From: Peromyscus leucopus
Taxonomy: Eukaryota; Chordata; Mammalia; Rodentia; Cricetidae
Length of the DNA: 64,000 nucleotides
Reading direction: 5' to 3'
Assembly: GCF_004664715.2 (NCBI RefSeq)
Contig: NC_051068.1
Coordinates: 131,026,716 to 131,090,715 of the forward strand
Below are positions 18,493 to 56,647 of the stretch, piece by piece. The notes beneath the pieces are model-generated. The model searched no databases, was not told the DNA's origin, and saw only the letters and a list, made by a program, of their open reading frames with translations. Position numbers and translations under genes: made by a program. The first letter of the stretch is position 1. Each line of letters starts with the position of its first letter.

Positions 18493-18520
18493 GGTTGGGA
18501 AACTTTTAATGATTGTTATT

Positions 18521-18592
18521 GGCTAGCTCAGTCGGTAGAGCATGGGACTCTTAATCCCAGGGTTGTGGGTTTGTGCCCCACGTTGGGTGCCA
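18521..18592 (+). pseudogene. tRNA-Lys(CTT) copy, positions 5-76 including CCA
   Basis: This is an ungapped match to tRNA-Lys with anticodon CTT: D-arm ggctagctcagtcgg, anticodon loop ctcttaa and a 3' CCA (18,590-18,592). Four substitutions are seen. C48T, C56T and C72T are all at CpG. A58T is at 18,574, the position methylated to m1A in mature tRNA. The four bases before it (tatt) do not match GCCC. The encoded CCA and the LTR junction show it was copied from a mature tRNA. The changed T-loop (B box) makes it unlikely to be a working tRNA gene. Confidence 0.92.
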
Positions 18593-18594
18593 GA

Positions 18595-18915
18595 TATTCG
18601 TGAAATTATTTTGGCCACTCCACGTAGTTAAAAGTATATTTATTTAATAGCATAACTCACAAATTAAGTAATAGGTAGGTCGCAGGGTCTGGGGAAGGTG
18701 TATCACAGTCCAGCGGTGTTCTCTTGAGCTCTGCTCAGTCACTCTCCACCGTTCAGCATCCCAGCACAGAGAGAGCGCACTGAGAGAGCGCTGGCCCATC
18801 CAGCTCTCGGGTCTCCAGGCGCCTCCCATGGCCCCACCTTGTAGGTGTAACAGTTGCCAGAGTCTCAATGGGGGTTGTAACTTCCAGATCCAAGCTGGAA
18901 TGGCTACCCACTACA
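18595..18915 (-). repeat. LTR, TGTAGTGGG family (tRNA-Lys primed class II)
   Basis: It matches the LTRs at 35,209-35,527 and 56,343-56,647, which all start TGTAGTGGGTAGCCATTCC and end near ggccataataatttcac. A poly-A signal (tttatttaat in reverse) lies near 18,640. Confidence 0.9.
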
Positions 18916-19017
18916 GATTGTTTCTATTTCCTTAGGGGTTATTTGTCTATTTAAATAGTTTATCTGGTCTTGATTTAACTTAGGTATGTGGTACCTATCC
19001 AGAAAATTATCCATCTC

Positions 19018-19405
19018 TGTAAATAGAGTTTTCCTGCCTGGCCCACAGTCAGGACAAATCTCTGTCACCTGCCAGTCCCACAACCGATCAGACCCAACCA
19101 AGTAAATACAGAGACTTATATTGCTTACAAACTGTATGGCCATGACAGGCTTCTTGCTAACTGTTCTTATAGCTTAAATTAATCCATTTCCATAAATCTA
19201 TACCTTGCCATGTGGCTCCTGGCTTACCGACATCTTCACATGCTGCTTGTCATGGTGGTAGCTGGCAGTGAATTCCTTCCCCTTCCTGTTCCCTTAATTC
19301 TCCTCTCTGTTAGTCCCGCCTATACTTCCTGCCTGGCCACTGGCCAATCACTGTTTTATTTATTGACCAATCAGAGCAATTTGACCTACAGACCATCCCA
19401 CAGCA
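19018..19405 (-). repeat. 3' LTR of the short ERV
   Basis: On the minus strand it begins TGCTGTGGGATGGTCTGTAG and ends CTCTATTTACA. It contains CCAAT-type motifs (gaccaatcagagc and ggccaatcactg in the + reading). Confidence 0.92.
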
Positions 19406-20343: not shown

Positions 20344-20731
20344 TTTAACTAGAGTTTTCCTGCCTGGCCCACAGTCAAGACAAATCTCTGTCACCTGCCA
20401 ATTCCACAGCCGCTCAGACCCAACCAAGTAAACACAGAGACTTATATTGCTAACAAACTATATGGCCATGGCAGGCTTCTTGCTAACTGTTCTTATAGCT
20501 TAAATTAATCCATTTCCATAAATCTATACCTTGCCATGTGGCTCATGGCTTACTGGCATCTTCACATGCTGCTTGTCATGGTGGTGGCTGGCAGTGACTC
20601 CCTTTCCCTTCCTGTTCCCTTAATTGTCCTCTCTGTTAGTCCCGCCTATACTTCCTGCCTGGCCCCTGGCCAATCAGTGTTTTATTTATTGACCAATCAG
20701 AGCAATTTGGCATACAGACCATCCCACAGCA
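20344..20731 (-). repeat. 5' LTR of the short ERV
   Basis: Same length as the 3' LTR (388 bp), with scattered differences, e.g. at the terminal tttaact versus tgtaaat. Confidence 0.9.
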
Positions 20732-35147: not shown

Positions 35148-35820
35148 GAAGGATATTTGATCATTCTGTAAACACCAAGATTAATCAAATAAAAACCTGA
35201 GGCCACGATGTAGTGGGTAGCCATTCCAGCTTGGATCTGGAAGTTCCAACCCCCAATGAAACTCTGGCAACTGTCACACCTACGAGGTGGGGCCAGGGGA
35301 GGCGCCTGGAGACCTGTGAGCTGGATGGGCCAGCCCTCTCTCTGTTTGCTCTCTGTGCTAGGACCCTGAGGCATGGAGGTGGACCGAGCAGTGCTCCAGA
35401 GAACACTGCTGGACTGCAATACAACTTTCCCAGACCCTGCGACCTACCTATCACTTAATTTGGGAGTTACACCATTAAATAAATATCATTTTAACTACGT
35501 GGAGTGGCCATAATAATTTCACCAATACCAGGAGGTGGAGACAGTCACTAGTAGACAAGAAGTAGCCATAGAGAGTAAAGAAGGAGTCGGGAAGATGGAT
35601 ACAGAAGTGCACAGGGAGTAGATGGGAGGGACTAAGAGTTTGACAGTCCCTTTTGGACTGGAATGGTGGGAAAGGACCTCTTACTGAGACACTGGTTAAG
35701 GAGGAAGGTCAGTGAGTTGCTTCTCAACCTCTGATCTAGCAGATTTTTACCCCAGCCTTTAACTCCTGAGTCTTTATTAGTAAAATCATAAGGTATAAAT
35801 TTAGATTAAAAAAAAATATT
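35148..35820 (+). mobile_element. Probable 5' LTR of ERV copy A, interrupted
   Basis: 35,148-35,208 (gatatttgatcattctgtaa, caaataaaaacctgaggcca) joins in sense to 35,534-35,820 once the LTR at 35,209-35,527 is removed. It ends directly before a weak primer-site-like tggcactcat at 35,821 and the ERV leader. The start is approximate. Confidence 0.5.
35209..35527 (+). mobile_element. Solo LTR, TGTAGTGGG family
   Basis: Same family as the LTR in the tRNA chimera. Near-identical flanks ccacga (35,203-35,208) and ccagga (35,528-35,533) suggest a 6-bp TSD with one mutation. Confidence 0.85.
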
Positions 35821-43631: not shown

Positions 43632-44097
43632 TGTGGTGGCATTCCTGCTGAGCTGCACCTGGCCTTGCTCCAGAGAGTAGCACCTAGCTCTAATCCATCT
43701 TTTGTTTCCTTTGTTGCCCTCTGTGTGAATCTTCTCTCTGAGTTTCCCAAGGATACAAAAGCCTATGTGAAACTTGATTCAGGAAACCTGAAAAACTATG
43801 GTACCTGACAAATCGAGGAATTTGCACTTGACATTGTATTGTTGGGAGCCCCCTTTGGGGTTCTTTTGAACATATGGAAATTAACTGGCTAAACTGTGTT
43901 GGTGAGAAATAAAACTGCCCTAGGCAAAGGGATAGTGCTTCAGTCCTTTGAGGCTGGACCCCCTGCAGCCATGAAAGGCTAGATACATTCTTAAGATGCC
44001 TCTGAGTCTTCATTTCATGGACCTGAGTAACCCACACACTCATGTCATAACCTCACAGCTACATTTGGCACCCAATGTGACACACAGTTATACCCCT
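43632..44097 (+). mobile_element. LTR plus primer-binding site insertion, no internal region, TSD CCCTTC
   Basis: Inserted between the zinc knuckles of copy B, flanked by exact cccttc (43,626-43,631 and 44,098-44,103). It consists of an LTR of 432 bp (43,632-44,063, TGTGGTGGCATTCC...CAGCTACA), the spacer tt, a tRNA-Lys-like primer site tggcacccaatgtgacac (44,066-44,083) and only 14 more bases. A poly-A signal (gaaataaaact) lies near 43,907. Confidence 0.88.
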
Positions 44098-56342: not shown

Positions 56343-56647
56343 TGTAGTGGGTAGCCATTCCAGCTTTGATCTGGAATTTCCAACCCCCATTGAGGCTTCG
56401 GTAACTGTCATGCCTACAAGGCAGAGCCAAGAGAGGACCCTGAAGACCTGAGATCCAGATGCGCTGGCTCTCTTGGTTCCTGGACACTAGACGCTGGAGG
56501 TAGACCAAGCAGAGTTCTCCAGAGAACACTGCTGGACTGTACTACACCTTTCCCAGACCCTGTTACCTATCCCTTCACTTGTAAGTTACCCCACAAAATA
56601 CACCTCCATTTTAACTACGTAGAGTGGCCTTTATAATTTCACCATTA
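56343..56647 (+). mobile_element. LTR, TGTAGTGGG family
   Basis: Third copy of this family in the window; it begins TGTAGTGGGTAGCCATTCC and ends near ttataatttcaccatta. No clear TSD is seen, and it replaces the expected end of copy D. Confidence 0.85.

Follow-up and report, generated by a model that had tools for sequence, protein, structure and literature searches.

How did a long terminal repeat (LTR) come to be fused to an almost complete copy of a mature tRNA-Lys(CTT) that is altered at the very base where reverse transcriptase (RT) normally stops? This question is raised by a 399-bp insertion (18517-18915) inside an L1, recognised by eye, in a stretch of 64,000 nucleotides of Peromyscus leucopus DNA, here called the window. 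The stop at m1A58 of the primer tRNA is familiar from studies in vitro and in cells. A first-pass annotation, made from the letters of the window, saw in this insertion an integrated plus-strand strong-stop DNA that had read through m1A58 and copied the whole tRNA, a fossil of a transient intermediate. The overall observation was confirmed and the read-through idea proved right, but the label of integrated strong-stop DNA is incomplete. The best explanation, to which we assign a probability of roughly 0.88, is read-through of m1A58 followed by a template jump and insertion by integrase.

In LTR sense, the insertion reads LTR, TC, an 18-nt primer-binding site (PBS), the complement of tRNA-Lys(CTT) back to position 5, and AATA (Table 1). 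Direct reading and a script bore out the annotated order of LTR, two-base spacer, PBS and ungapped tRNA, the last ending at 18521. Both parts lie, as had been claimed, within one duplication, GATTGT/GATTGT, which is 6 bp long and has a matching seventh base, T. Compared with the G29/C41 isodecoder, a sequence that we take as the reference for this copy, tRNA positions 5-76 carry C48T, C56T and C72T, all at CpG, together with A58T, in agreement with the three CpG transitions and one further change reported initially. This isodecoder type is present in the genome as a gene-like locus (L098). The Rfam tRNA model scored 42.9 bits on the copy (gathering threshold 29); where the copy has U in the T-loop, the model's consensus has A. 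ARAGORN called no tRNA gene at the insertion and the RNA fold of the tRNA stretch was no better than shuffles, both of which are expected of a damaged copy without tRNA positions 1-4. At a normal end, the TC spacer would be expected to be removed by integrase.

The claim that the whole tRNA had been copied does not hold: the window copy stops at tRNA positions 5-7, and AATA at 18517-18520 stands in place of positions 1-4. Since the same letters form the U5 terminus of the family LTR at 35209-35527, AATA is most likely not damage, but the family U5 terminus fused at a common CC, an end for integrase to use. Both outer ends of the insertion equal family LTR termini, TGTAGTGGG and CC-AATA; the random chance of AATA in the window is about 0.8-0.9%, and longer U5 pieces in the same arrangement occur in two other copies (L072, L078). 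The added U5 piece extends only 4 nt beyond the tRNA homology, which counts against the best explanation. The tRNA complement past position 58 agrees with a plus-strand strong-stop DNA, whereas the molecule was not a bare one, a U5 end having been added. Judging from the 6-bp duplication, the ERV behind this LTR is probably class II/ERVK-like, and Mys/MysTR is a candidate lineage. MysTR is reported to occur in deer mice (PMC10089650).

Table 1. Features of the LTR+tRNA insertion and related LTRs in the window
Feature	Position	Strand	Basis or remark
Target-site duplication, left copy (GATTGT)	18511..18516	.	Direct reading and script
AATA (LTR sense; TATT on + strand), most likely re-acquired U5 terminus/integrase end	18517..18520	-	Joined to tRNA copy at common CC
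DNA copy of mature tRNA-Lys(CTT), positions 5-76 including CCA	18521..18592	+ (tRNA sense)	Rfam and script
tRNA position 58, T for A (m1A58 site)	18574..18574	+	Rfam, script and copy comparison
18-nt PBS, tRNA positions 59-76	18575..18592	-	Direct reading and script
Two-base spacer TC, U5 to PBS	18593..18594	-	Direct reading and script
Complete LTR, 321 bp, TGTAGTGGG...CACGAATA; AATAAA at LTR position 272	18595..18915	-	
Target-site duplication, right copy (GATTGT)	18916..18921	.	Direct reading and script
Ordinary solo LTR, same family as the window LTR	35209..35527	+	Flanks ccacga/ccagga, one mismatch; ends CACCAATA
More diverged solo LTR, same family	56343..56647	+	Duplication looked for, none seen

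The annotation had treated the insertion as a single fossil. The query 18511-18922 was compared with the same genome, with the best 40 candidates of 5180 in the first pass scored, and yielded 48 rows, comprising the window copy, 39 more LTR+tRNA copies (89-92% identity) and 8 neighbouring pieces. These 40 copies are a biased set, as the query carries T58 and 40 of 5180 candidates were scored. The annotation had also proposed a genome search for LTRs followed by more than 18 nt of tRNA-Lys complement. A pattern of 34 places (tRNA 49-76, TC and the U5 end, with N at 58 and up to 2 mismatches) gave 403 tRNA-to-U5 junctions in 2.48 Gb, and the reversed-pattern control gave 0. LTR+tRNA junctions are a recurrent class in this genome, beyond chance, and with 39 further copies and 403 junctions the one-off view was dropped. 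In hundreds of copies the CCA is fused exactly at the PBS. U5+PBS sites number 573 in the genome (up to 1 mismatch in 24 places). Among the zero-mismatch U5+PBS sites on contigs C1-C4, compared by hand, at least 37 of 85 have an exact tRNA extension; the true number may be higher, since the matches listed do not include extensions with mismatches.

Position 58 bears out the idea that read-through of m1A58 was recorded as a mutation. This base is changed in 37 of the 40 copies (T32, G5, A3), versus 12 changes in 2363 cells (0.5%, at most three at any site) for the 61 other non-CpG sites, isodecoder sites 29 and 41 excluded; the Fisher p of about 1e-67 refers to a non-random sample whose query has T58. 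CpG cells were changed in 40 of 459 cases. When one copy was kept per distinct junction, base 58 was T in 28, G in 5 and A in 3 of 36. The tally of base 58 and end points that accompanied the annotation as a check was made as well: the 100 listed zero-mismatch junctions, which were chosen with N at 58 and are unbiased for that base, have T83, A9, G8 and C0, an alteration in 91 of 100, and end points vary among the 40 copies. A genomic tRNA-Lys gene already carrying T58 had been named as a finding that would speak against the idea. Two CCA-excluding patterns searched at zero mismatches, which would miss genes off the pattern, identified three gene-like tRNA-Lys(CTT) loci (L097-L099), all with A58, without CCA and including both main isodecoder types. 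The sole gene-like match with T58 (L096) was rejected as another chimera, being followed by TAGATATTGG.

The excess of change at position 58 only, with T over G, and its absence from the three gene-like loci are the signature of misincorporation, and a change rate of 91% speaks for bypass of the modified base rather than for a lack of m1A58. In HIV-1, m1A58 of tRNA-Lys3 is described as the normal stop, and read-through as occurring with unmodified tRNA or with a mutated TRMT6/TRMT61A methyltransferase (PMC13191261). For an evolved HIV RT, A-to-T is reported as the main misreading of m1A, while misincorporation opposite m1A by wild-type HIV-1 RT was not visible in one Sanger assay (PMC11019740), a result that stands against a simple generalisation of m1A misreading.

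We infer in what order the events took place, which strand was the acceptor and that an ERV's own RT was at work. A tRNA-Lys(CTT)-primed ERV would make plus-strand DNA comprising U3-R-U5 and then the attached primer tRNA, and RT would pass m1A58 instead of stopping at 18 nt, usually placing dA (T in tRNA sense) and more rarely dC (G). The plus strand would copy the tRNA all or almost all the way to its 5' end, giving a tail that is presumably unfit for normal second strand transfer. Its 3' end would then jump to another template. For the window copy this would be the last 4-6 nt or so of U5 on minus-strand DNA; elsewhere it would be a whole tRNA-Glu, some other sequence, or a longer stretch with U5, inverted U3 or U3-R-poly(A) at its end. 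In inverted-U3 copies, U3 or U3-R would have been copied in the opposite direction, with the other U3 end possibly set by a second PPT. Such a jump would supply a second integrase-competent end, and integrase would insert the molecule with a 6-bp duplication. For the window copy, the integrating DNA may have been short from the outset, or a two-LTR form reduced afterwards by recombination.

Far ends were examined on the tRNA side of all 40 copies. In 14 of them an exact 6-bp duplication touches a family-type end (TGTAGT or TATTGG), seven copies ending in U5 and seven in inverted U3; duplications permuted among loci gave a mean of 0.42 and a largest value of 4 (500 permutations). The U5 ends are 4 (window copy), 21, 24, 576, 798, 1064 and 1702 nt from the tRNA, and the seven inverted-U3 ends 67-509 nt. 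A one-mismatch duplication next to a family-type end is present in L054, L073, L075 and L089; apart from these four, looser candidates, which have either one mismatch or different letters at the end (L061, for instance, has an exact 6-mer ahead of TGTAGA), were taken for chance. An exact duplication with a family-type end was absent on the tRNA side in 26 of the 40 copies within the 4 kb read (1.5 kb for L023), and these missing duplications count against the best explanation.

In 10 of the 40 copies, another complete LTR with the same orientation lies within 2.5 kb. The paired LTRs are 94.7-99.7% alike, and in all 10 cases the match within the pair exceeds that to the median other copy; in L075, however, the pair (94.7%) falls below the match of one of its LTRs to another locus (96.9%), and five further pairs are equalled by some other copy. 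Nine copies contain an inverted LTR or U3 piece, eight of which are nearer their own LTR than the median copy and one equal, with a closer match elsewhere in four (L058, L081, L084, L089). This pattern agrees with single events that took place at different times, and templates may have been co-packaged, but pairing that is not exclusive, in either orientation, counts against the best explanation.

Several neighbours of the tRNA suggest what the acceptors may have been. In L081, U3-R runs to LTR position 291 and is followed by A39 and then the tRNA. Given this U3-R end, the A39 and the AATAAA at 272 of the window LTR, the acceptor looks like the polyadenylated end of a viral RNA. Poly(A)-tRNA-Lys junctions number 13 genome-wide (up to 1 mismatch; control 0). 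One of the copies, L065, adjoins by eye an apparent L1 ORF2 fragment with a tail and is without a duplication; its poly(A) may be the genomic L1 tail, and a possible genomic origin of poly(A) neighbours counts against the best explanation. L077 has the order LTR-TC-A-tRNA-Glu+CCA-tRNA-Lys-inverted LTR, in which a complete tRNA-Glu with CCA (75/75 to a sequence that we take as its reference; A at 58) and a complete tRNA-Lys stand end to end between inverted LTRs that match at 318/318 bases. In L062, a short tandem repeat coding PPLAEV units is located directly beside the tRNA 5' end.

For the window copy, a two-step route has to be considered as a genuine, if minority, possibility: two-LTR or full-length DNA with the tRNA at its U5 end would have been integrated, and LTR-LTR recombination would afterwards have left one LTR plus tRNA. 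The two other family LTRs in the window are solo, circular DNAs that retain the primer tRNA at their U5 end are known (Colicelli and Goff 1986, via PMC12220202), and 2-LTR junctions with PBS/tRNA insertions have been described (PMC5618025, PMC9198661). In the region of L085, two LTR+tRNA junctions occur 0.84 kb apart on the same strand (C3:141144072 and C3:141144910), perhaps because each LTR of a single element retained its tRNA copy. However, recombination requires two events for the window copy, and by itself leaves inverted-U3 copies unexplained.

An improbable alternative is that these loci form a non-autonomous ERV subfamily whose internal region starts with an inherited T58 tRNA copy and which spread by ordinary retrotransposition, in the manner of Helenus. 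Hundreds of copies do exist, and Helenus elements are existing tRNA-bearing LTR families (PMC10886601). The LTRs, however, show a median pairwise difference of 6.9% (741 pairs of 39 LTRs, L078 left out by a length filter), about 7% against about 1% at non-CpG tRNA sites (0.98%, 442/44976). The tRNA ends at position 1 in 22 of the 40 copies and at 2, 3, 4, 5, 6, 7, 9, 13 or 19 in the other 18; 36 distinct 14-mers lie beside the tRNA end, neighbouring sequences and flanks vary, and isodecoder states are mixed (A29/T41 in 32, G29/C41 in 6, G29/T41 in 2). From this contrast between LTR and tRNA divergence, and the variation of end point, neighbour, flank and isodecoder, the tRNA appears to have been copied anew, not inherited, in most copies. 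A Helenus-like family would have one junction and inherited tRNA changes, whereas here 36 junctions were found among 40 copies, with T, G and A at 58 and near constancy at other non-CpG sites. Some sharing does favour inheritance: the only non-poly(A) junction found twice is that of L053 and L068 (98.7% over 150 adjacent bases), and several other loci have a common acceptor sequence near the junction. Yet L053 and L068 have different flanks and A in one and T in the other at 58, and their common junction may mark a hot spot, or the two may belong to a small lineage.

An ordinary mutation of later date is a very unlikely source of A58T in the window copy: although a single non-CpG change among 61 sites would be unremarkable taken alone, position 58 is altered in 37 of the 40 copies and in 91 of 100 blind sites. 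Tailless tRNA retrocopies exist, and a genomic tRNA-Lys gene, pseudogene or L1-made retrocopy that happened to adjoin an LTR could be thought of as the source; among the 36 tRNA-Lys+CCA sites where the next base is not G, nine read CCAA, five of them with A58. This origin is hardly credible against the exact CCA-PBS fusion in hundreds of copies, gene-like loci without CCA (found with patterns that exclude CCA) and a single duplication enclosing both LTR and tRNA in the window copy. An L1-made retrocopy would have a longer duplication and no LTR, and the window copy has a 6-bp duplication and an LTR.

The 36 sites with a non-G next base, counted by hand, comprise 27 CCAT (base 58: T20, A5, G2) and 9 CCAA (T4, A5). 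Six were inspected, and five of these (L090-L093, L095) share another U5-like sequence that has no BLAST match to the window LTR; their bases at 58 are T, T, G, T and T and their tRNA end points 5, 1, 9, 5 and 4. The sixth (L094) has A58 and end point 17. Patterns for two other primer tRNAs, built on sequences that we assume to be representative and covering the T-arm plus CCA only, gave few matches, which counts against the best explanation: tRNA-Lys3(TTT) had 2 matches in the genome, both A58 with one mismatch each, and tRNA-Phe had 0; other families may still occur.

At slightly less than even odds, we propose a long-standing by-pass in which several unrelated tRNA-Lys(CTT)-primed ERV families would regularly have crossed m1A58. 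RT would then have switched, end to end, to other packaged RNAs, namely viral poly(A) tails, tRNA-Glu and perhaps mRNAs of the host, and the resulting chimeras would have been inserted by integrase. Solo-LTR-like and internally deleted elements would thus be made at insertion, without later recombination, and LTR elements that bear a tRNA may have originated through this by-pass.

No L1 copy lacking the insertion (empty site) was found in the window or in virus and prokaryote contig collections, nor were relatives of the insertion found in these collections. The 22 loci from the virus collection were rejected as chance matches; BLAST of the insertion against them gave 5 loci with one 18-base stretch each.

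The insertions resemble several known products of aberrant reverse transcription. HIV-1 plus-strand strong-stop DNA on tRNA-Lys3 involves the same step and stop base (PMC13191261), whereas the read-through products in this genome are integrated in the germ line and altered at 58 in 91 of 100 sites. A circular Moloney MLV DNA has tRNA-Gly between its LTRs (Colicelli and Goff 1986, as described in PMC12220202). As in that circle, a primer-like tRNA is copied beside U5, with 4 nt lacking at the tRNA 5' end in the MLV case; the MLV example is a circle clone with a spurious primer, whereas here the primer is cognate, the junctions are genomic and number hundreds, and integrase ends were restored in at least 14 of 40 copies. 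A reverse-transcribed tRNA-Gly at the 3' LTR of an HIV provirus in a clonal line (Gurgo and Franchini 2025, PMC12220202), which its authors propose arose by two independent events, is likewise a mature CCA tRNA beside an LTR and lacks 5 nt at the 5' end. Unlike the present copies, it is described as a case from a clonal line with a non-cognate tRNA and without an integrase end on the tRNA side.

PBS sequence also occurs at HIV U5-host junctions in Mre11-deficient cells, but the remnants reported there measure only 2, 4, 11 or 15 nt and belong to abnormal proviruses with no or 2-3-bp repeats (PMC2797772). In contrast, the window copy has a regular 6-bp duplication, which fits its restored U5 end. 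Helenus TRIM elements share tRNA sequence inside LTR-element DNA, but are described as amplified families with conservation around Pol III boxes (PMC10886601), whereas here most copies appear to be independent read-through products; the LTR+tRNA class could be one birth route for Helenus-like elements. Like a solo LTR, the window copy has a single LTR and a target-site duplication, and unlike a solo LTR it has primer tRNA and a second U5 end. The known kind is aberrant reverse transcripts, and what is new is germ-line occurrence, recurrence and an RNA-modification signature. No genome-wide record of LTR-tRNA read-through insertions was found in the literature searched, which reached subscription journals only scantly.

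These fossils preserve a transient replication step and an RNA modification in DNA, and make hundreds of natural read-through junctions readable at base resolution. They allow misincorporation during ERV reverse transcription in vivo to be tallied (T:G:A of 83:8:9 at the 100 listed sites), and their far ends reveal where a failed second strand transfer went and, perhaps, which RNAs were near RT. A one-step origin of LTR-only and internally deleted insertions is suggested, which bears on solo LTRs and non-autonomous elements. Similar insertions, with CCA-tRNA past the PBS and an altered base 58, are predicted in any genome with tRNA-primed ERVs.

Other repeats in the window were also noted. At 43840-44080, an apparent U5-PBS junction of another ERV (CTACA, TT, TGGCACCCAATGTGACAC) is followed by non-tRNA sequence, i.e., an ordinary PBS without read-through. 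Near the L1 that carries the insertion, another repeat occurs as two direct copies (19020-19319 and 20346-20645, 94%). A sequence similar to it by eye directly follows tRNA-Lys+CCA in L094, and this resemblance makes the repeat probably the LTR of a tRNA-Lys-primed ERV. From about 37500 to 64000, several families are present in two to five direct copies at a spacing of 5-7 kb and longer, as of a tandem unit.
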